From NCBI RefSeq assembly GCF_001719065.1, contig NZ_LWAF01000016.1, positions 1 to 38,431 on the forward strand: a DNA stretch of 38,431 nt, in the 5' to 3' direction. This document shows, piece by piece, positions 12,222-36,081 of the stretch. Positions within the stretch are counted from its first letter, which is position 1. Each line of letters opens with the position of its first letter. Both the position numbers and the translations under genes were made by a program. The notes beneath the pieces are model-generated. The model was not told the origin of the DNA and made no database searches. It worked only from the letters and a program-made list of their open reading frames with translations. The stretch is from Fervidobacterium thailandense. GTDB taxonomy: Bacteria > Thermotogota > Thermotogae > Thermotogales > Fervidobacteriaceae.

Positions 12222-13424
12222 CTAAGATCTGACGTTCTTGAGTAGTCTGAGCATTACAAACGCGTTCACAAAGTAGAAAATGGAACTCACGAGGAAGATG
12301 AGTGTGTAGCCCGAATTGTACTGGGTAAAGAAAGCAAACAACTCCGCCGAAAGTGCTCTCGATACGTTGTTCAAGAAGTTGTTCAACCCGTTTACCGAAG
12401 CGAGGATAGAAGTTGGCACTTGCGAGAAGACTGTTGATGAAAGTAGCGGACTAACCATGTTCATCACGGCAAACCGGAGCACGTAAACTGCGCTAAAAAC
12501 GATCGGTTCACGTGTAAAACTCAGAAACACTATCATGATCGGGACGACAACATAAGACATTATGAGAACACGCATCTCACCAAACCTTTTACCCAGTCGG
12601 TGAGAAAAGATAGCTCCCAAACCAGTGGCAAGTTGCGCAAGTGAAAGGATCGTACCTATGAGCGAAGGTTTAAAGTTGAAAAGGTCGTGAAATATGATGT
12701 TCCCAAAAGACACAAAAAGTCCCGCACCGAATCCCACGCTGATCGTCGAAAGGAAATAGTAAATTACGACCTTTCTGACGTTAGCTGGGACGGTCGTCCG
12801 AACTTGTTTCACATTCTCTTCGGTTCTGTGCGAAACATCACGATCCGCGAGGTTCAATTTAAAAACAGGGATTAGCGCAAAAAGCCTCACCAAACTCGAA
12901 AGGAGAACACTCAACTTCAAACCAAATAGCTCACCGAGAAATCCACCGACGAAATTTCCCACCGTTCCAGTGAGCATACCGATTCCGAAATTCAGTCCGA
13001 AGTACTTACTCCTCTCATCACGCTCGGTTTTCAGAACTAGAAGCGTTGACATCACCATCGCAGTCGCGGCCGAGAAACCACCGAAGAAAAAGGAACTTAC
13101 GTTCAGTGCCACCATCGAGCTACTCAAGACCCTGTACGTTCCGAAGAACACTCCGAGAAAGTGCGTGAAAACCAAGATAGCCCGTTTGTCAACCTTGTCA
13201 GATAAAAATCCGAAAAATAAACCGAGTAACGCACTACCCCACAAGCTGTTGGACGTTATACGCCCTACTGCACTGGTTGAAAACCCTACCGATTTCAGTA
13301 GTAGGTTAAAGAGCGTTCCGTAAATCCCCATCGCCAAACCATCTATCAATGTAAAACAGGTAATTAGTAGCGCCGAATTCGCTCTCCGCTTGTCATCACT
13401 TAGATGCCCGCTCCATCTGCGCAT
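12222..13424 (-). CDS. Major facilitator superfamily transporter (second, convergent)
   Basis: The 400-residue protein has 12 predicted membrane helices and the MFS motif A segment FGFLSDKVDKRAILVF in the first half, with a corresponding SHRLGKRFGEMRVLIMSY in the second. A polar central loop (NLADRDVSHRTEENVKQ) separates the halves. Start 13424 has GAGGAGGG upstream; an ATG 18 bases further out lies before the ribosome site. It converges on the other MFS gene with no room for a terminator, so the transcripts probably overlap. The two proteins resemble each other only in general architecture. Substrate unknown. Confidence 0.88.
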   Translation of the reverse strand: MRRWSGHLSDDKRRANSALLITCFTLIDGLAMGIYGTLFNLLLKSVGFSTSAVGRITSNSLWGSALLGLFFGFLSDKVDKRAILVFTHFLGVFFGTYRVLSSSMVALNVSSFFFGGFSAATAMVMSTLLVLKTERDERSKYFGLNFGIGMLTGTVGNFVGGFLGELFGLKLSVLLSSLVRLFALIPVFKLNLADRDVSHRTEENVKQVRTTVPANVRKVVIYYFLSTISVGFGAGLFVSFGNIIFHDLFNFKPSLIGTILSLAQLATGLGAIFSHRLGKRFGEMRVLIMSYVVVPIMIVFLSFTREPIVFSAVYVLRFAVMNMVSPLLSSTVFSQVPTSILASVNGLNNFLNNVSRALSAELFAFFTQYNSGYTLIFLVSSIFYFVNAFVMLRLLKNVRS

Positions 13425-13494
13425 TTGAGCCCTCCTCAACATCCTCGGAAATTATCACGCACAAAAAAGTTCGCACTTCTAACTTCCAAGAAAA

Positions 13495-13557: not shown

Positions 13558-13584
13558 TTATCACTCTTGACAGTTGAGTGCTAA
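13558..13584 (+). promoter_or_regulatory. CIRCE element (HrcA operator)
   Basis: TTATCACTC (13558-13566), nine bases, then GAGTGCTAA (13576-13584). The CIRCE consensus is TTAGCACTC-N9-GAGTGCTAA, so the right arm is perfect, the left has one mismatch, and the spacer is the canonical nine. HrcA binds CIRCE and represses heat-shock genes. The -35 hexamer of the downstream promoter lies within the spacer, so bound HrcA would exclude RNA polymerase. HrcA itself is not in the window. Confidence 0.88.
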
Positions 13585-13595
13585 TTAGGTATAAT
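13567..13595 (+). promoter_or_regulatory. Near-consensus sigma-A promoter of the KaiC-like / Clp operon
   Basis: TTGACA at 13567-13572 and TATAAT at 13590-13595 are both perfect hexamers with an optimal 17-base spacer. This would be very strong when not repressed, which is usual for a promoter under HrcA control. Confidence 0.9.
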
Positions 13596-13632
13596 ATTGT
13601 TGCAAGCTGGTGTGGGAAGGGGGGAAGTAGGT

Positions 13633-14520
13633 ATGGCAGAAAGGGTTGAAAAGAGCGAGGTTCAAAACAATCAGTCGGCTTACCAACAACAGTACCAGCC
13701 GCTCAAGGAAGCCGTTCTGGTCGGTAGTGAGACGATCCTGAGAGCCCCAAAACTTGTTGGCGTTCCAACCGGTGTTGAAGGGCTTGACGGATTGTTCTAC
13801 ACAACGGAAATGACGCAAGAAGGGCCACGGAAAGTTTCGTTGGGTGGGATTCCGAAGTACGGAATCTTCAACCTTACCGGAGTTTCCGATACGGGCAAAA
13901 GTCTAATAGCCGAACAATTTGCCGTTAAACAAGCTTCCCGAGGGGAAAGTGTCATTTTTGTCACAGTCGAATCACCCGCAGAATTCGTGGTCATGGGAAT
14001 AAAGCAACGTGCCCAGGCAATGGGTATCGATTTCGAAGAAATAAAGGACAAAATAATATTCATCGACGTTGCGTCATACTCTTCGCTTCGAGACAACCTG
14101 GCCGAGTTCTTCGCCACCCTGGCTTACGCTATCAAGACGTACAAGGCCGAGTACACTGTCGTAGACTCGATCACCGGGTTGTTCGAGGAGAGGGAAGTTG
14201 CGGCAAGAATCGTCGTTCGAAAGGTCTTTTCGTTCCTGAAGAAGTGGAAGCAAACGGCTCTGCTAATTTCCCAGAAGAGAAGCGGACACGAAGAGTTAAC
14301 GGCCGAGGCGGCTGGTGGATACGCGGTTGGGCACATCGTCGATGGCACGTTCGTCGTCGCGAAGGAGTTGGTCGACACACCTTACAAAGCGAAGATGTAC
14401 AAGGTCGAAGTAGGGGATGTTGTAAGGTTCTTCAGGATCGACGGTTGCAGACTCACCGGACACGATACGAAGTTGCACAGAATGGAGATAACCGAGACCG
14501 GATTAGTTAGAATTCTTTAA
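13633..14520 (+). CDS. KaiC/RecA-like ATPase
   Basis: The 295-residue protein has the RecA/KaiC core: PTGVEGLDGL (residues 45-54, the KaiC-type lead-in), Walker A GVSDTGKS (83-90), a glutamate in VTVESP (E113) at the position of the catalytic base in this superfamily, and Walker B YTVVDS (174-179). It lacks the lon-protease domain and zinc finger of RadA and the DNA-binding tail of RecA. An extra glutamine-rich N-terminus of 40 residues precedes the core. KaiC-like single-domain ATPases act in signalling or as assembly motors. The start at 13633 has GGAAGGGGGG upstream; earlier in-frame starts fall on the promoter. It is the first gene of the CIRCE operon, 33 bases before the next. Specific function unknown. 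Confidence 0.82.
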   Translation: MAERVEKSEVQNNQSAYQQQYQPLKEAVLVGSETILRAPKLVGVPTGVEGLDGLFYTTEMTQEGPRKVSLGGIPKYGIFNLTGVSDTGKSLIAEQFAVKQASRGESVIFVTVESPAEFVVMGIKQRAQAMGIDFEEIKDKIIFIDVASYSSLRDNLAEFFATLAYAIKTYKAEYTVVDSITGLFEEREVAARIVVRKVFSFLKKWKQTALLISQKRSGHEELTAEAAGGYAVGHIVDGTFVVAKELVDTPYKAKMYKVEVGDVVRFFRIDGCRLTGHDTKLHRMEITETGLVRIL

Positions 14521-14553
14521 TGGACAAGAAACGACAATAAAGGGGGGATACGC

Positions 14554-15291
14554 ATGGTGGTCGTGAAACCGGTATCAGAACCGATCGAAGAGATAGTTGC
14601 AGAGATTGTTAACAGGTGTATTGAACTTGTGGGAGGTTTTGAGGGACTTCTAAAATACGACAATCTGACGTGGGTTACTTCGCTCGTTAGGAGCGCTTAC
14701 GCCGTGGTTCTGAAGCACGAGCTAAACAAAACAACCGAGGAAATCGCTAAAATTCTTGGAATAACAAAGAATACCGCAAAAGAGATTTTGGAAGCTAAGG
14801 AGGAGAAGGTTAGAGAACTTATCTCAAAAGGTGAGTTGCAAAGTATAGAGGAACTGGACACTCACATAGCCGGTGCGCTCGCAAAGATTGCTTACAAGCA
14901 ACTGAAAAGTGAAGGTGACCGGAAAATCGAAAGAATAGTTAGGAACGTGTTCAACATCGCTATAAACATCCTGGGAGGTTACAAGCGAATTGGTGAACTC
15001 AAGTTCCTAACTTGGTTACCTTCACTGGTCAGAGCTATTTACGCGGTAGTTCTGAAAAACGAACAAAACGTCACCGATGAAGAACTTACCACCAAACTTG
15101 GAATTTCGGATGTTACCTTGAAGAAGATCCTCGAAGCGGACCCAACGGAACTTGAACAGAGGTTATCCGAACTGTACGACTTCGACAACGATGATGACGA
15201 ATCAAAACACGAATCGAAGATACACATCGCCGGTGCCATCGCTAAAAGGGCTTACGAAGCGTTTAGAGAAAAACAGTTACGTGAACAATAA
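14554..15291 (+). CDS. Internally duplicated protein with two helix-turn-helix-like repeats
   Basis: The 245-residue protein consists of two clearly related repeats of about 105 residues (roughly 14-119 and 128-240). Each has an LTW-x2-SLVR-x2-YAVVLK-x-E segment (38-56 and 152-171), a helix-turn-helix-like [21 protein letters not shown] or [21 protein letters not shown] (about 61-81 and 175-195), and an HIAGA-x-AK-x-AY segment (104-114, 224-234). The order helix bundle plus helix-turn-helix in two tandem copies recalls the cyclin folds of archaeal TFB/TFIIB, but this is inference. I do not recognise the family. GGGGGG precedes the ATG. It lies between the KaiC-like ATPase and the Clp ATPase, 33 and 29 bases away, so co-transcription is very likely. 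Confidence 0.8.
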
Positions 15292-15320
15292 AAAATAATA
15301 TTATGAAAGGAGTTGATAGT

Positions 15321-17543
15321 ATGATGTTCAACATGGAAGACTTCACCGAAGGGGCGCAGGAGATACTGACGTCCGTCAACGATGTTTTGACCCGTTACAG
15401 ACACAACCAGCTTTCTCCAGAGCACATACTTTTGACGATGTTGGAGAACCAGAAAAACGCAGCTGTAGACATCTTGAACCATCTTGGTGTTGACCTTGAA
15501 GGTTTGAAACGCGACGTGGAGCGCGTACTCTCTTCGAAGGGAACCTACTACTATGCAGGAACATCCGGCGGTTCCGGGCAAATGTACATAACACCGGATG
15601 CGACCAAGATTATCAACGAAGCCAAGCGGGAAGCCAGACGTATGGGCGATGAAAAAGTCGGAACAGACCATCTATTGCTGGCCATGATACTCGTACCGGA
15701 AACGACAACGTACAGGTTACTCGCAAAGTACGGTGTCTCACCGGACAAGGTCTACAAGGCCATAAAGGATCTCAGGATGCAGCGCACGTACACCGAAGAG
15801 GAAAACATTGATGTCCTTGCCAAGTTTACTGAGAACCTCACGGAAATGGCAAAAAACGGACAGTTGATGCCCGTTGTGGGTCGTGAGAAGGAAGTTAACC
15901 GGATGATAGAAATCCTCGGCAGGAAGATAAAGAACAACCCGGTTCTCATCGGTGATCCCGGTGTTGGTAAGACGGCGATAGTGGAAGGTCTTGCGCAGAG
16001 AATAGTTGCCGGGAACGTTCCAGACTTCCTAAAAGGAAAGACAATATTAAAACTCGACCTTGCCAGACTCGTAGCTGGAACTAAGTTCAGAGGAGAATTC
16101 GAAGAAAGACTCAAAAAACTCGTCGATGTTCTGAAGAAACGTTCGGATGTAATTCTCTTCATCGATGAACTACACACCGTCGTTGGTGCGGGAGCGGCTG
16201 AGGGTGCGCTTGATGCCGGCAACATACTCAAACCCGAGCTTGCAAGGGGCACGATGCGTGTTATCGGTGCGACGACGGTGGAAGAGTACAGAAAGTACAT
16301 TGAAAAGGATAAGGCACTCGCAAGAAGGTTCCAGGTCATCTTTGTTGCAGAACCATCGGTCGAAGAAACCGTTGAAATTCTCAAAGGACTCAAACCGAAG
16401 TTTGAGGAGTTCCACGGAGTTAAAATCAGCGAAAGGGCACTCGAGTTTGCCGCTAAAATGTCCGCCCGGTATATAACCGACAGGTATCTGCCAGACAAAG
16501 CCGTAGACTTGATCGACGAAGCGGCCGCAAGATGCAAGATTGACGGAAAACAGATGGTCGAAGAGGAGGACGTTGCAAAAGTCATAGAAAGATGGACGGG
16601 AATCCCCGTTGGAAAGATGATGCAGGATGAGAAGGAGAAACTCAAGAGGTTGGAGGAGATAATCCACGAAAAGTTCGTCGACCAGGAAGAAGCGGTAAAA
16701 GTTGTTGCCAACGCAATCAAGATGTCCAGGGCCGGTATCAGGAATCCGAACAGACCTCTGGGTGTGTTCCTGTTCCTCGGACCCACAGGTGTTGGTAAAA
16801 CCGAGCTTGCAAAGAGACTTGCGGACGTACTGTTCGGTACAGAGAAGGCGCTCATACGTATCGACATGAGTGAGTACATGGAGAAACACTCTGTTGCGAG
16901 GTTGATCGGTGCACCTCCGGGCTACGTGGGTTACGAAGAAGGTGGATACCTCACCGAGCAGGTCAGAAGGAGACCGTACAGCGTTATACTCTTTGATGAG
17001 ATAGAAAAGGCACACCCGGAAGTTTTCAACGTACTTTTGCAACTGTTCGACGACGGTAGGTTGACCGACGGAAAGGGTAACACCGTGGATTTCAAGAACA
17101 CGATTATCATAATGACCAGTAACATCGGCTCTGAAGTGATCATCCAAGATATCGAGGAAGGCTTCGAGGACATGATACCAAAACACATCGAAGAGGAAAT
17201 GCGCAAGTACTTCAGACCGGAACTGATTAACAGAATCGACGCAGCGGTTGTCTTCAAGCCACTGAAGAAAGAACATATCAAACAGATTGTCAGAATTTAC
17301 TTGAGCGAGCTAAACAACAGGCTCAAAGATAAGAACATCGTTGTGGAAATTGATGAGAGTATGATGGAGTATTTGGCAACGGAAGGTTACGTACCGACGA
17401 TGGGAGCAAGACCTCTGAGGAGGTTGTTCGAAAACACTGTGGAGTTTAAGATAGCGGAGTTGATTATCAACGATCAACTCAGAGAGGGTCAAAAGATAAC
17501 ATTCTCCTGGACCGACGAGGGATTGCAGTGGAAGATTGAATAA
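15321..17543 (+). CDS. Hsp100/Clp AAA+ ATPase (ClpB/ClpC-like) lacking the middle domain
   Basis: The 740-residue protein has a Clp N-terminal repeat domain (1-145), D1 with Walker A GDPGVGKT (211-218), pore loop [13 protein letters not shown] and Walker [13 protein letters not shown], and D2 with Walker A GPTGVGKT (487-494), [15 protein letters not shown], pore loop [13 protein letters not shown] and sensor region [10 protein letters not shown]. Sequence style is ClpB-like, yet between DEAAARCKI and [14 protein letters not shown] there are about 12 residues where ClpB carries a middle coiled coil of roughly 120 and ClpC a shorter one. I also see no clear IGF/IGL ClpP-docking tripeptide. It unfolds or disaggregates proteins with ATP. 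The start after AAAGGAG at 15321 is preferred to 15303, and CIRCE control upstream fits a heat-shock role. Confidence 0.9.
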
Positions 17544-17573
17544 TCGATCAAACGACCAGTACGAAATACGGTG

Positions 17574-17605
17574 AAGGCCGACCGCAACAAACGGTCGGCC
17601 TTTTT
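17574..17605 (+). terminator. Rho-independent terminator of the CIRCE operon
   Basis: AAGGCCGACCG (17574-17584) pairs perfectly with CGGTCGGCCTT (17592-17602) around a seven-base loop, followed by further T residues. It lies 30 bases after the Clp stop codon, before the convergent queD gene. Confidence 0.92.
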
Positions 17606-18134: not shown

Positions 18135-23102
<4,968 letters not shown>

Positions 23103-23121
23103 CAGGGTCCCTCCTTAACCC

Positions 23122-23142
23122 TATGGTGCTTTCAGCACCATA
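23122..23142 (-). repeat. Hairpin in the rpoB-rpoC intergenic gap
   Basis: TATGGTGCT and AGCACCATA form a perfect 9-bp stem around a three-base loop, immediately before the rpoC ribosome site. No T-tract follows on the minus strand, so it is not an intrinsic terminator. An mRNA-processing or translation-control element is possible. Confidence 0.6.
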
Positions 23143-23163
23143 TTACGTTCTTGAATTATAACT

Positions 23164-26100
23164 TTATAACTTTTCTATATCAATTTCCCTACCGTGCTCG
23201 TCGTAAACACGTACGTCCAAGGCCAATCCCTTCAGCTCTCTAACCAACACCTTAAAGCTTTCCGGAAGACCAGGTTCTGGTAGGTTCTTGGACTTCATTA
23301 TGGCCCTGTAAACTTCCGTTCTTCCTCTGATGTCGTCACTCTTGACTGTAAGCATTTCGTTGAGTGTGTAAGAAGCTCCGTACGCTTCAAGCGCCCAAAC
23401 TTCCATCTCTCCGAACCTCTGGCCACCGAATTGCGCCTTACCACCGAGCGGTTGTTGGTGGATTAGCGAGTACGGGCCTGTTGCACGAGCGTGGATCTTA
23501 TCGCGTGCAATGTGTATGAGTTTGAGCATGTACATGTAACCAACCAACACCGGTGAGTCGAACTCCTTACCCGTACGTCCGTCCCTCAGCGTGACCTTGC
23601 CGGACGGATTTTCCGGATCATCACCGTGGTGCAGGTTGAACTGTTCGCGAACCTTGTAAAGTTCCGGGAGTATTTCGTCTTCTTTTGCACCATCAAAGAC
23701 AGGAGTTGCAAAGTATCTGTTGGTCAGTTTCGCAAGCCATCCAAGAGACGTTTCGAGTACTTGTCCGATGTTCATTCGCGATGGAACTCCCAGAGGACTC
23801 AGAACGATTTGGACCGGTGTACCGTCCGGCAAGAACGGCATGTCCTCTTTCGGAAGTATCATCGAAACGACACCTTTGTTTCCATGTCTTCCAGCGAGCT
23901 TGTCACCAACTTCAAGTGGTTTCCTTGTTGCAAGGTAAACGCGCACGAGTGTGTTGACTCCAGGGCCAAGGTCTCCGACTTCCTCCTTGTGATAGACGTT
24001 AACACCGATGACTCGACCTTCAACACCGTGCGGGACTCTCAACGAAGAGTCTTTTACATCCTTACCTTTTTCCCCGAAGACAGACCTTATGATCTTCTCC
24101 TCCGGACTCGCGTCGCTCTCACCTTTCGGTGTCACTTTACCGACAAGTATATCCTGAGAGGACAGGTATTTTTGCCTACCAACGTACGCTCCAACACGTA
24201 TGATTCCATTCTCGTCCAAGTTCCTCAAGTTTTCCTTGGAAACGTTCGGCACCTCGGCTGTGATTTCTTCAGGCCCGATTCTCGTTTCTCGCGCGGTTGT
24301 CTCGTACACCTCGATATGGACCGATGTAAAGGTGTCTTCTTCGAGCAATTCTTCACTAACCAAGATAGCATCCTCGAAGTTGTAACCTTCCCACGGCAGG
24401 AACGCGACGAGCACGTTTTTACCAAGTGCCAGCTCACCGTTATCGGTAGCCGGACCATCGGCTATGGGCATACCCTTCTTCACGAAGTCACCCACGTTGA
24501 CGATTGGACGCTGGTTTATACACGTATCCTGGTTTGACCTCACGTATTTGAGCAATTGGTACTCGTCAACGATCGGGTTACCTTTTTTATCGTAAAGTGG
24601 CTCACCATTTTCGTTAACGCGTTGGATGATGATCTTTCGCGCATCAACTTTTCTGACTATACCGTCGTGTTTCGCGGTTACAACGTGTCCAGAATAGAGG
24701 GCAGCTGGATACTCCATACCCGTTCCCACAAGTGGTGCCTCGGGTTTTATCAACGGAACGGCCTGACGTTGCATGTTCGAACCCATCAGTGCACGGTTTG
24801 CGTCATCGTGTTCAAGGAACGGGATGAGCGATGTGGTAACACTGACTATCTGTTTTGGAGAGACATCTATGAAATCCACCTCGTGTTTGTCGACGAACAC
24901 GATTTTCTCCATGTACCTTACCGTAACCTTGTCGGGGATTATGTTTCCTTCCTCGTCCACAGGAATCGTAGCCGAGGCAATCCTGTAGTGTTCCTCTTCA
25001 TCAGCTGCGAGATAGACGATCTGATCGGTTACCTTACCGTTGATCACCTTCCTGTACGGGGTGATCAGGAACCCGAACTTGTCTATCGTGGCGTAGACTG
25101 CGAGTGACGTGATGAGACCGATGTTACCACCTTCCGGTGTCTCGATCGGACACATCCTACCGTAGTGTGAGTGGTGTACGTCGCGCACCTCGAACCTTGC
25201 GCGTTCCCTCTTCAATCCACCAGGTCCCACCGCCGTCAACCTTCTCTTGTGGGTCAATTCTGATATCGGATTCACCTGGTCCATGAACTGGGAAAGCGGG
25301 TTTGTTGCGAAGAAACTGTTTATCGCAGCAACAACACTCCTGAGGTTGACCACGCTTGGGATCGAGATTTTATCGAGACTGGTGTACGTTGCCAACCTTT
25401 CCTGGATCTGGTGAACAACCTTTGAAAACGCTCTCTCGAATTCCGCACCGTAGAGCTCCCCAACGGTCCTAACACGTTTGTTAGCCAAGTGGTCCTTCGT
25501 ATCGAGCGTTTCCGGGTGTCTCTCAACTTCAAGGAGCATCTTCGTAACAAGTATTATATCCATTGGAGTCAACGCGTTGAACGACTCCGAATACTCGACA
25601 TTCTCGACATCCTTGGGATTCCTGCCTTCAATCTCAACAAGGTACCTTCTGTACGCGTTCGTCAGTTTCTTGTTCATCTTATAACGCCCAACTTCGGATA
25701 GTTCGAACCGTTCCTCGTTGAAGTACAGGCTGTTCCAGTAGTTCTTCGCGGCGTTGTACCTGAACACTTCACCGGGTCTGAGTTCACGGTAAATCTCCAT
25801 GTACGCACGGAGTTCACTGATTTGCTCTTCTTGAGGAATTTTCAACCTTTCTTTCAATTTGAGATAGGTTTTGAACATGTATTTGTTGACGACCTTTATC
25901 CGCTCAATACCGTGTTCCCTGAGCTCTTGAACGAGCGACGGAGTTAAAATGCTGCCTTTCTCGGCCAGCACCTCGCCGCTCTTTGATTTCACAGTTTCGA
26001 GTATAATAACACCGTTCGCATGTTCCACAGCATAGTCATCTTCCACATCGATGTACGTCGGGAAGAGCGATAGCACGTCAAGATCGTTCTGATAACCGAG

Positions 26101-26712
26101 CGTCTTCAAAACGAGGAAAAGGTTAAGCCTCTTCCTCCTGTCGATTCTGGCGTACAGCGTCTCGTCGTTGAGATTCAACATTATCTCGAGCCACACACCT
26201 CTGACAGGTAAGAAGTGTGCAACGTATATGGGTTTTGCCCCGACGTTTCTCGTCGGCTCTTCAACAAAATATACACCCGGGCTCCTAACAAGCTGGCTTA
26301 CAACGACACGTTCAACACCGTTTATAACGAACGTTTGATTTTCCGTCATCACAGGATAATTACCGAGACTCACTTCCTCTTCACGCATCTCACCAGTTGA
26401 AAGGTCCGTCACCCTGACAGTTGCGTAGAAGGGGGCGACGTAAGTCAACAGCCTCTGCTTACACTCCTCCACGGAGTTTAGCGGAGCACCGACTCTGAAA
26501 CCGACGAACTCGAGGCTGAATCCCTTATCCTTTCTCCCTTCGCCCTTAACCGAGGTGATCGGACAGAACTTTTTGAGGATCTTCAGCAAACCGGAATTTA
26601 TCAATTCCGAGAACGAATCACGCTGAATTTGTACGAGGTCTGGCACGTCCAAGATTTCGGAAACTCTCCCGAACGAGAACCTCGTCCTGTTCCCAATCTG
26701 ATAGGTTTTCAT
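23164..26712 (-). CDS. rpoB: RNA polymerase beta subunit
   Basis: The 1182-residue protein has the conserved blocks in order: [17 protein letters not shown], the rifampicin region [20 protein letters not shown] (474-493), [48 protein letters not shown] and the C-terminal clamp [20 protein letters not shown]. Together with beta' it forms the polymerase active-site cleft. The position equal to E. coli Asn518 is Val480 and that equal to Ser531 is Thr493, changes within the rifampicin pocket. The start has AAAGAGGTGATTGA upstream. It follows rplL across a 215-base gap with an intrinsic attenuator, so its expression is probably set lower than the ribosomal proteins'. Confidence 0.98.
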
Positions 26713-26805
26713 TCAATCACCTCTTTCCAAAATTAATTGTACACGGATAACCGCAACTGAGGGAAGAAAAAATAAAAAGACGTAAGGTGGAACCGAGTGT
26801 AACCC

Positions 26806-26845
26806 ATTGGTGAACTGCGGAAATAGGGGGTAATAATACACCAAT
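26806..26845 (-). repeat. Inverted repeat in the rplL-rpoB gap
   Basis: ATTGGTG (26806-26812) and CACCAAT (26839-26845) are exact reverse complements 26 bases apart, between the attenuator and rpoB. The short arms may close a stem-loop in the mRNA or be coincidental. Apart from this and the attenuator, the rest of the 26713-26927 gap shows only the rpoB ribosome site and no convincing second promoter. Confidence 0.35.
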
Positions 26846-26860
26846 TTTATATTAAACCAC

Positions 26861-26895
26861 AAAAACCCCGCACTGTAAATCCTTGTGCGGGGTTT
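26861..26895 (-). terminator. Attenuator between rplL and rpoB
   Basis: On the minus strand AAACCCCGCAC pairs with GTGCGGGGTTT (11 bp, loop 11 bases), followed by further T residues and a T-rich stretch. It lies 33 bases after the rplL stop. As in many bacteria, partial termination here would make ribosomal protein L12, present in several copies per ribosome, in excess of polymerase subunits. Confidence 0.85.
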
Positions 26896-26927
26896 GATAC
26901 ATAATATTATCTTTCAAGAAACAGTTG

Positions 26928-27317
26928 TTACTTAATTTCAACCTCTCCGCCGGCTTCCGCAATTTTCTTCTTGATTTCCTCAGCCTCTTCCTTCTTAACG
27001 CCCTGTTTGATAAACGCGTCCGGAGCACCAGCTTTTTCAACGAGGTCTTTAGCTTCTTTCAGACCAAGTCCGGTGATTTCCCTGACAACTTTGATAACTT
27101 CTACCTTCTTCTGACCGAAGCTCTTAAGAAGCACGTCGAACGTGTCCTTTTCCTCAGCTGCCGCTGCTGCTGGAGCTGCCGCCGCTGCAACTGGCATCGC
27201 TGCCATAACTGGAGCTGCTGCGCTGACTCCGAATCTTTCTTCGAGCATCTTAACAAGTTCCGCAAGTTCCGCAACCGTCAATGACTCAATAGCTTTTACA
27301 AGTTCTTCCAACGTCAT
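26928..27317 (-). CDS. rplL: 50S ribosomal protein L7/L12
   Basis: The 129-residue protein has the L12 N-terminal dimerisation helix pair ([21 protein letters not shown]), an alanine-rich hinge (about 39-61, with [13 protein letters not shown]), and the factor-binding C-terminal domain with [19 protein letters not shown] and [11 protein letters not shown], ending in GGEVEIK. It binds L10 and recruits translational GTPases. ATG 27317 is preceded by GGAGGTG with ideal spacing; the frame extends six codons further without biological support. It lies 58 bases after rplJ in the same transcript. Confidence 0.97.
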
Positions 27318-27375
27318 AGTCACACCTCCGTACATGGATTTTTACATGCTGTTACCGAACCAAAATACCGAAAGA

Positions 27376-27921
27376 TTACTGACCTTCCTTCTTTTCCTTA
27401 ATCGCGTTAAGCACATAAAGCATATTTCTCATGACGCCTGCAAGCACGTTGACAAATCCGCGTATCGGGGCTTGGATACCACCAACGACCATCGCAAGGA
27501 GTTGTTCTCTCGACGGAAGTTTGGAGAGTTCCTCGAGTTGTTCTCCCGAGAAGAACTTTCTTTCAAGGTAGATCCCCTTACAAACTGGTGTTCCCTTGTT
27601 CTCCTTGATGAAGTTGTGCAGTATTTTGATGGCCTCCACAGGATCCCCTTGTGTGACGTACAGCACCGCCGTTGGCCCGAAGAAAACTTTCTCGGCTGCC
27701 GCAACGTCGTATTCGGCGTTTCTGAGGGCCATCTTCAGGAGTGTGTTCTTTACAACCTGGAGTTTTGCACCACTGCCCATCTTTTCGCGTAGCGATCTTC
27801 TGAGTTTGGTCATTTGGGCAACCGTCAACCCCGTGAAATCGGTGAAGAGTACAAGTGAAGAGTTCTTGAACGTTTCCGTCAATTCCTGAACCAGTTTCTC
27901 TTTTTCAGGTCTTCTGAGCAC
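27376..27921 (-). CDS. rplJ: 50S ribosomal protein L10
   Basis: The 181-residue protein matches L10: EKLVQELTETFKNSSLVLFTDFTGLTVAQM, broken here into EKLVQELTETF, SLVLFTDFTGLTV and KLRRSLRE, then VVKNTLLKMAL, the PTAVLYVTQGDPV strand, and the C-terminal helix (NVLAGVMRNMLYVLNAI) that docks L12 dimers. It is the base of the ribosomal stalk. The start is GTG 27921 with GGAGGTG upstream. The gene heads the rplJ-rplL-rpoB-rpoC operon and follows a structured leader with a terminator. rplK-rplA-nusG-secE, its neighbours in many bacteria, are absent here; a penicillin-binding protein gene lies upstream instead. Confidence 0.97.
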   Translation of the reverse strand: MLRRPEKEKLVQELTETFKNSSLVLFTDFTGLTVAQMTKLRRSLREKMGSGAKLQVVKNTLLKMALRNAEYDVAAAEKVFFGPTAVLYVTQGDPVEAIKILHNFIKENKGTPVCKGIYLERKFFSGEQLEELSKLPSREQLLAMVVGGIQAPIRGFVNVLAGVMRNMLYVLNAIKEKKEGQ

Positions 27922-34629: not shown

Positions 34630-34659
34630 TTGATTTTTAACAGTACCCTGTGGGATAAT
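34630..34659 (+). promoter_or_regulatory. Candidate dnaA promoter
   Basis: TTGATT (34630-34635), 18 bases, then GATAAT (34654-34659). It lies 85 bases before the dnaA start, leaving an untranslated leader of about 75 bases. Confidence 0.55.
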
Positions 34660-34743
34660 TTTACAGCGGTGGGGGACACCCAAAATTTAGTACCTCCCAA
34701 TTTGGAATCTTTCCTTAAAATTCTCCATTGCACGAGGTGCGTT

Positions 34744-36081
34744 ATGTCCTCTTACGTGAAGGACAAAATTCTTTCCCTACTAAGGGAAAAGGTCAGCAGA
34801 CAACAGTGGGAACACTGGTTCATAGATTTTTCGGTAAAACGCATCGAAGGTACCCACGTGATTTTCGAAGTGGGTAATTTGTTCATAAAGGGATATTTGG
34901 AGAAGAAGTTTGACAAGATCATTCGCAAAGCCGTTTCAGAAGTGCTTGGTCAGGGGGCGACCTACGAGATAGTTTACGCCGAGATCCTACAAAACGACAT
35001 GACGGTACACGATAACAACCAGGCCCTTGTGAAAAAACGGCCAGTTCTGATAACACCACTGAATCCAAAGTACACGTTCGATAACTTTGTGGTAGACGAG
35101 TTTAACCAGTTCGCTTATAACCTACTTCTGGAGGCCGCTAAAAAACCTGGAACTTACAACCCGATTTTCATCTACAGCGAGGCTGGAATGGGAAAAACCC
35201 ACCTCGTGCAAGCGTTCGGTAATTATCTCTTAACGGAAAACCCGGATCTGAGGTTTGCGTACTTAACAAGCGAGCAATTTATGAACGAACTAATAAACAA
35301 GATAAAGTCGGGAACAGTGGAAGAGTTTAGGGAAAAGTACAGGCGAAAGATTGACGTGCTTGTTATAGACGACATCCAGTTCCTCGCCGGTAAGAAAGGC
35401 ATTCAGATCGAACTTTTCCATACGTTCAACGCCCTCTACGAATCTGGCAAACAGATTATCGTCTGCTCGGACCGTCCCCCTAAGGAGCTGAAAGATTTCC
35501 AGGAGAGAGTTATCTCCCGTTTCCAGATGGGCGTGATTGCGCAGATAAAAACCCCTTCGAAAGAGGCACTGAAAAAGATCGCGTTCAAAGTTGTCGAAGA
35601 CGAGAAGGTGAAGATTCCTCCTGAGATAATTAATTTCATCGCGACCCACATTAAAGGGAGCATCAGGGTGCTGAAGGGAGCCATAGTAAAGGTAATAGCT
35701 TACAAGAGCATGTACGACTATGTGGATCTTGAAATTGTGAAGAACCTTTTGAGGGACAACCTCGAAATGGAAAACCATAATCATGCTCCCGATGTTATCG
35801 AGCTGATAGCCAAACAATTCGGAGTTTCTAAAGAGGATCTCCTATCATCTAAAAAAGACAGAAAGACTTCGTTGGCTCGTCAGATCAGTATGTACGTGCT
35901 GAACAAAAAGTACGAACTTTCAGTCAGGAAGATCGCGGAGATGTTCGGAAAAACGCATCCGGCGGTTGTAAGTGCGATTAAAAACGTTGAAGAGATGATC
36001 AAAACGGACAAATTTTTGGCAAATTTAGTCAGATTAGCTTTCGAAAGTTCGGATCAACACGCAGGAAAGCTGATGTCTTGA
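34744..36081 (+). CDS. dnaA: Chromosomal replication initiator DnaA
   Basis: The 445-residue protein has the DnaA domains in order: domain I (LLREKVSRQQWEHWFIDF), a short linker, the AAA+ domain with NPIFIYSEAGMGKTHLVQAF (Walker A GMGKTH), Walker B VLVIDDIQFLAGK, the SDRPPKEL sensor and the arginine finger region ERVISRFQMG. The C-terminal DNA-binding domain has LARQISMYVLNKKYELS and the signature FGKTHPAVVSAIKNVEE. The signature reads GKTHPAV where many bacteria have GRDHTTV, a feature likely tied to a non-standard DnaA box. ATG 34744 has GAGGTG upstream and gives the normal N-terminus. dnaN, often next, is not here; ferredoxin follows. Confidence 0.96.
   Translation: MSSYVKDKILSLLREKVSRQQWEHWFIDFSVKRIEGTHVIFEVGNLFIKGYLEKKFDKIIRKAVSEVLGQGATYEIVYAEILQNDMTVHDNNQALVKKRPVLITPLNPKYTFDNFVVDEFNQFAYNLLLEAAKKPGTYNPIFIYSEAGMGKTHLVQAFGNYLLTENPDLRFAYLTSEQFMNELINKIKSGTVEEFREKYRRKIDVLVIDDIQFLAGKKGIQIELFHTFNALYESGKQIIVCSDRPPKELKDFQERVISRFQMGVIAQIKTPSKEALKKIAFKVVEDEKVKIPPEIINFIATHIKGSIRVLKGAIVKVIAYKSMYDYVDLEIVKNLLRDNLEMENHNHAPDVIELIAKQFGVSKEDLLSSKKDRKTSLARQISMYVLNKKYELSVRKIAEMFGKTHPAVVSAIKNVEEMIKTDKFLANLVRLAFESSDQHAGKLMS

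Follow-up and report, generated by a model that had tools for sequence, protein, structure and literature searches.

What brings a KaiC-like ATPase and a helix-turn-helix (HTH) protein onto one transcript with an Hsp100 unfoldase, downstream of a CIRCE element (controlling inverted repeat of chaperone expression), the predicted site of the heat-shock repressor HrcA? This question is raised by an operon at positions 13558-17603 of a 38,431-nucleotide stretch (the window) on contig NZ_LWAF01000016.1 (C16) of the hot-spring bacterium Fervidobacterium thailandense, whose genome (G000) measures 2.04 Mb and is 99.95% complete. An earlier note on this DNA proposed that the first two proteins select targets for the Clp unfoldase or regulate its use. 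We favour, with some reserve, another answer, namely that a reverse-gyrase-linked kaiC_2-TIGR03879 DNA module was captured by an HrcA-controlled clp unit and that the pair is not a Clp adaptor. The ingredients of the operon are of known kinds. For their combination, for the domain duplication in the second protein and for the pair's association with reverse gyrase and with heat-shock operators no description was found, nor was any paper naming TIGR03878 or TIGR03879, in a search of literature consisting mostly of papers outside subscription.

The operon and its operator

The 27-bp CIRCE-like inverted repeat at 13558-13584 (no strand assigned) reads TTATCACTC-N9-GAGTGCTAA, one mismatch away from TTAGCACTC-N9-GAGTGCTAA, and is the sole match in the window at up to three mismatches, where shuffling gives an expectation of 0.01. 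Its spacer holds the -35 box, TTGACA (13567-13572), of a plus-strand sigma-70-type promoter TTGACA-N17-TATAAT (13567-13595), which scores 12/12 and has its -10 box, TATAAT, at 13590-13595. Three plus-strand genes with gaps of about 30 nucleotides follow, kaiC_2 (13633-14520), a double-HTH gene (14554-15291) and clp (15321/15324-17543), and the unit closes with an intrinsic terminator at 17573-17603 on the same strand, a GC-rich 12-bp hairpin with a T tail. No further plus-strand promoter was flagged inside the unit by the promoter scan. The one-mismatch CIRCE enclosing the -35 of a perfect promoter, and the three closely spaced genes with a single terminator, are therefore as the earlier note had described them. 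The likely start of clp is 15321/15324, because the ATG at 15303 overlaps the Shine-Dalgarno stretch.

The HrcA control that the earlier note had assigned to this three-gene heat-shock unit is well supported at the sequence level. The genome encodes HrcA, GrpE, GroES, GroEL, DnaK and Hsp20, with CIRCE-like sites upstream, and the operon CIRCE is conserved in the sister species (G076). Genome-wide, four sites occur at two mismatches or fewer, against zero for a reversed control pattern, and these lie at dnaK, hsp20, the kaiC-HTH-clp operon and a methyl-accepting chemotaxis protein gene; sites with three mismatches are found at groESL and at hrcA-grpE-dnaJ (dnaJ assigned solely from its position). 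At dnaK, hsp20 and the operon the CIRCE is built alike and encloses TTGACA. The chemotaxis site (C7:12939-12965, or L070:5940-5966), with two mismatches and TTGACA inside, lies about 60 bp upstream of its gene, and the HrcA regulon of the genome may extend to this chemoreceptor.

The first protein matches TIGR03878 (thermo_KaiC_2) at 408 bits, with a cut-off of 232, over model positions 1-254 of 259. It is a single-domain KaiC/RecA-type ATPase with an intact Walker A motif (GVSDTGKS) and with E113 and D178 invariant in the alignment. A circadian clock KaiC was ruled out: the protein has 295 residues and one domain instead of CI plus CII, and scores 46 bits with circ_KaiC where 546 are needed. 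NCBIfam assigns no function to the 'thermo_KaiC' families.

The two-repeat protein that follows, unrecognised in the earlier note, consists of two TIGR03879 (near_KaiC_dom) domains of HTH type (about 14623-14913 and 14965-15270), matching at 163 bits in two stretches, with each repeat over the cut-off in G000; it adjoins kaiC_2, as the definition of the domain expects. The domain occurs twice only in the two genomes of the window genus, compared with the partners at KaiC_2 loci of other phyla and of other Thermotogota, and the partners of other phyla mostly have a single copy, extended at the C-terminus by about 90 residues. Between the two species of the window genus the protein is 80% identical. 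PHROGs returned generic HTH and helicase matches only. The AlphaFold2 (AF2) model is all-helical and of good confidence (pLDDT 87, pTM 0.62); Foldseek gave no match at E <= 0.001, the top VIA score was Z 5.9, and TFIIB core, DnaA and sigma region 4 entries appeared several times at Z of about 4-5.5. A fold assignment from these matches was dropped, as they are too weak.

The third protein, of about 740 residues, has two Clp_N motifs and two AAA domains (D1 and D2), lacks a middle domain and bears a ClpB-like short loop in place of the IGL/IGF-type ClpP-binding loop in D2 of ClpC/ClpA. An identity as ClpB was rejected, there being no insert between D1 and D2 and the best NCBIfam match, TIGR03346, reaching 976 bits with a cut-off of 1232; an identity as ClpC/ClpA, the ClpP partners, was rejected on the shortened loop region and the missing middle domain. 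The same genome has an ordinary ClpC (contig C3) with both SLGF loop and middle domain. Two families of the order have full-length orthologues that lack the middle domain, and in two families Hsp100 proteins lack this domain and the ClpP loop alike. In the two T. maritima relatives the middle domain is retained and the ClpP loop is missing as well. Together these proteins (window 15321-17543; L073, L075-L099; L195, L196) represent a little-studied Hsp100 branch.

History of the clp locus

None of the nine genomes of the sister genus (Fervidobacterium-type) contains TIGR03878 or TIGR03879. Nevertheless, in each of the seven sister-genus genomes in which the clp start is covered, a CIRCE with embedded -35 sits 75-117 bp directly upstream of clp, with 0-1 mismatch in six of them and four in one. 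A major facilitator superfamily (MFS) transporter gene, which in the window lies outside the operon on the minus strand (12222-13442), stands divergently upstream of the clp unit in the sister genus too and anchors the empty site by synteny, and immediately behind the -10 box the leader of G076 agrees with that of several sister-genus genomes (TCGGAAA). In more distant relatives clp has neither a CIRCE nor an adjoining kaiC. The kaiC-HTH-clp arrangement is present in both genomes of the window genus.

On this comparison, the parsimonious history would be the insertion of a kaiC_2-HTH cassette in the 5' leader of a pre-existing CIRCE-clp unit, at a point after the promoter and ahead of the clp ribosome-binding site; loss of the pair from the sister genus, instead of gain in the window genus, is less likely. 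The KaiC_2 tree places the window genus on a separate branch, and the approximately unbiased (AU) test did not reject one clade with Pseudothermotoga-type KaiC_2 (p 0.72). Since the test allows such a clade, transfer from a named donor was dropped.

Reverse gyrase and recurrent heat-shock operators

The kaiC_2-TIGR03879 pair is widespread in thermophiles, among them Aquificota, Thermodesulfobacteriota, Campylobacterota and Aminicenantes. Among the best 80 KaiC_2 loci, which we surveyed, the TIGR03879 partner adjoins KaiC_2 in 53, and the reverse gyrase gene rgy starts at most about 110 bp past the TIGR03879 stop in 15 of the 53 loci with partner and downstream room. These kaiC_2-TIGR03879-rgy loci belong to Campylobacterota and to Persephonella-type Aquificota; a search of the phylum showed the same order in five Campylobacterota genomes. 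Within the family to which the window genome belongs, two genera have the order rgy-kaiC_1-TIGR03879, mostly with overlapping or abutting genes, and the kaiC_1 product at these loci is of the TIGR03877 type, only about 25% identical to KaiC_2. The two KaiC types never occur together in the 31 Thermotogota genomes with TIGR03879, as if one took the place of the other.

Co-occurrence was counted in 103 Thermotogota and 121 Campylobacterota genomes. In Thermotogota, with TIGR03879 scored when over its cut-off, the domain and rgy are present together in 27 genomes, TIGR03879 alone in 4, rgy alone in 5 and neither in 67; the same contrast is seen inside each of three genera (g3, g14, g38), and the corresponding genus-level counts are 11/3/2/22. 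In Campylobacterota, the pair and rgy share 10 genomes, rgy is alone in 2, the pair in none, and 109 have neither. In other phyla, 27 of 33 genomes with KaiC_2 also hold an rgy above the cut-off and three more hold it in fragments, and G000 itself encodes a true reverse gyrase (TIGR01054, 1360 bits). The P values of 1e-15 and 5e-13 overstate the case, because the genomes share ancestry and growth temperature confounds the comparison. The shared rgy operons are free of this weakness. Reverse gyrase is regarded as the hallmark protein of hyperthermophiles (PMC6878951), and in Nautilia profundicola rgy rises more than 100-fold with heat (PMC2628731).

Heat-shock operators recur at KaiC pairs. We trained a CIRCE matrix on sites lying elsewhere than upstream of kaiC and used it to score the upstream regions of 111 kaiC genes and 6660 shuffles, the best of which scored 10.8. 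The site of the window genus scored 32.3. For Thermotoga kaiC_1, five of seven genomes gave 26.3, 26.3, 20.2, 15.7 and 15.7, the remaining two having decayed sites of 8.1 and 4.2, and kaiC_1 of G100, a genome of a different family, scored 23.5; in six genomes kaiC_1 scores beat every shuffle. CIRCE sites thus stand at the operon in the window genus, at clp of the sister genus and at kaiC_1 of Thermotoga and G100. The matrix scan found no CIRCE upstream of kaiC_2 in other phyla or at the rgy-kaiC_1 loci of Thermotogota; the KaiC_2 pairs lacking one include those of G058-G062 and of Aquificota. One distant family (L046, genome G002) has a perfect half-site TTAGCACTC about 50 bp upstream of the kaiC_2 open reading frame, the second arm being without a match.

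Thermotoga has few CIRCE sites at up to three mismatches: two strong ones in every genome, which we take to be those of hrcA and groESL on the T. maritima map, and the kaiC_1 site in three genomes. In six Thermotoga genomes a CIRCE lies shortly before a clpC-type match, some 65 bp ahead of its first aligned codon in the full-length cases. The pair and a Clp gene thus seem to belong to one regulon there as separate members, as opposed to the single transcript of the window genus. The neighbourhood of the Thermotoga kaiC_1-TIGR03879 pair (L051, G090) holds argR, an AcrB-type transporter gene and DnaK-type and Hsp20-type genes.

In Pyrococcus furiosus, the KaiC-domain gene PF1931 and the predicted transcriptional regulator PF1932 have Phr motifs upstream and show strong heat-shock induction (PMC10746257). 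With CIRCE at the pairs of the window genus, Thermotoga and G100, and Phr at PF1931/PF1932, heat-shock control of KaiC/HTH pairs therefore appears to have arisen more than once.

The pair in the heat-shock response and its known relatives

If a reverse-gyrase-linked module was indeed captured by the clp unit, HrcA on CIRCE would block the promoter and would be released upon heat stress, whereupon one heat-induced transcript would deliver the KaiC ATPase, its double-HTH partner and a stand-alone Hsp100 unfoldase. This transcript would supply two arms of protection, with the Hsp100 guarding proteins and the KaiC-HTH pair guarding DNA alongside reverse gyrase; DNA-side and protein-side heat protection are probably combined on it. 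The RecA-fold ATPase and its HTH partner would bind and act on DNA, either by aiding or controlling reverse gyrase, possibly through functional contact with it, or as an architectural factor, or by regulating the high-temperature state.

Several observations weigh against this reading. In G000, rgy lies on contig C10 and the pair on C16, and they do not form one operon; four Fervidobacterium genomes have rgy without the pair, and four others (G036, G037, G002, G100) have the pair with no rgy detected. Growth temperature by itself may explain why pair and rgy occur together, the AF2 model of the HTH protein yields weak fold matches only, and the insertion could have been accidental, with HrcA control of the pair unneeded.

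The alternative that survives best, although we hold it to be rather unlikely, is that the pair acts as a transcription switch, in which the HTH protein responds to the ATP state of KaiC and in turn regulates genes of the thermal stress response, perhaps rgy, making the link to reverse gyrase regulatory and not physical. The HTH_10 match of the second protein above the Pfam cut-off, its sigma-region-4-like and other regulator matches, the NCBIfam description of TIGR03879 as a 'probable regulatory domain' and the prediction of PF1932 as a transcriptional regulator all fit a switch, but no operator was identified for it, the structural matches are weak, and a position in or overlapping rgy operons fits a direct partner equally well. 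More improbable still is an accident in which the pair came to lie in the clp leader and just shares its transcript, the HrcA control of the pair being functionless: the arrangement is confined to one genus and KaiC_2 pairs elsewhere (e.g. in G058-G062 and Aquificota) do without CIRCE, yet operator and gene order are kept in both species in spite of the divergence of the HTH protein to 80% identity, and heat-shock operators recur at the Thermotoga and G100 paralogous pair and, as Phr motifs, at the Pyrococcus KaiC gene. The adaptor or regulator model of the earlier note, in keeping with the shared transcript, the tight spacing and the conservation in both genomes of the genus, is rejected as highly improbable because the three-gene synteny is not conserved, the full trio being found in these two genomes only, with the pair followed by clp only in the sister species (L103) among the best 80 KaiC_2 loci, a Clp gene about 0.7 kb upstream in L161 and about 6 kb off on the other strand in L105 (some contigs being short), CIRCE-clp without the pair in the sister genus, and reverse gyrase as the neighbour of the pair instead.

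The linkage to rgy, seen as co-occurrence in two phyla, as shared operons in three phyla and with two KaiC types, would point to a concrete function for a widespread pair and would tie KaiC-like ATPases to the heat-shock response. A broader proposal, which we put forward tentatively, is that KaiC-TIGR03879 serves reverse gyrase as its dedicated partner and forms a heat-inducible module for DNA topology or DNA protection in bacteria and archaea that is placed under the heat-shock repressor of its host (HrcA in Thermotogota, Phr in Pyrococcus) and is joined here with a protein unfoldase in a single transcript. The relevant passages of one paper naming both reverse gyrase and KaiC draw no connection between them, and a proteomics paper on temperature in T. 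maritima mentions neither KaiC nor ClpC.

Elsewhere in the window, reading the translations, we noted rpoB-, rpoC- and rplJ/rplL-like genes at 18135-27921, downstream of the operon on the opposite strand, and a dnaA-like gene near the window end (34630-36081); no tRNA genes were found across the window.

Among known systems, the CIRCE-clp unit of Fervidobacterium-type genomes shares the CIRCE with embedded -35, the upstream MFS gene and a clp 82-86% identical to that of the window, but has no kaiC-HTH between promoter and clp. The TIGR03878/TIGR03879 pairs of many thermophiles resemble the present one in that both proteins exceed the curated cut-offs and the genes lie side by side, whereas here the TIGR03879 domain is duplicated and the operon stands under CIRCE and ends in clp. 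In the kaiC_2-TIGR03879-rgy operons of Nitratiruptor-type Campylobacterota and Persephonella the same two genes occur in the same order (KaiC being 61-63% identical in five Campylobacterota), with rgy and not clp as third gene and with no CIRCE found. The Thermotoga TIGR03877-TIGR03879 pair, one KaiC_1 of which matches PH0284 (2dr3) at 433 bits, likewise joins a KaiC ATPase to a TIGR03879 partner behind a CIRCE-like operator, but its ATPase is a paralogue about 25% identical, it lies apart from clp and it has one TIGR03879 domain. PF1931/PF1932 of P. furiosus, as described in PMC10746257, agree in having a KaiC-domain gene, a neighbouring predicted regulator and heat-shock repressor motifs, and differ in that the repressor is the archaeal Phr and not HrcA.

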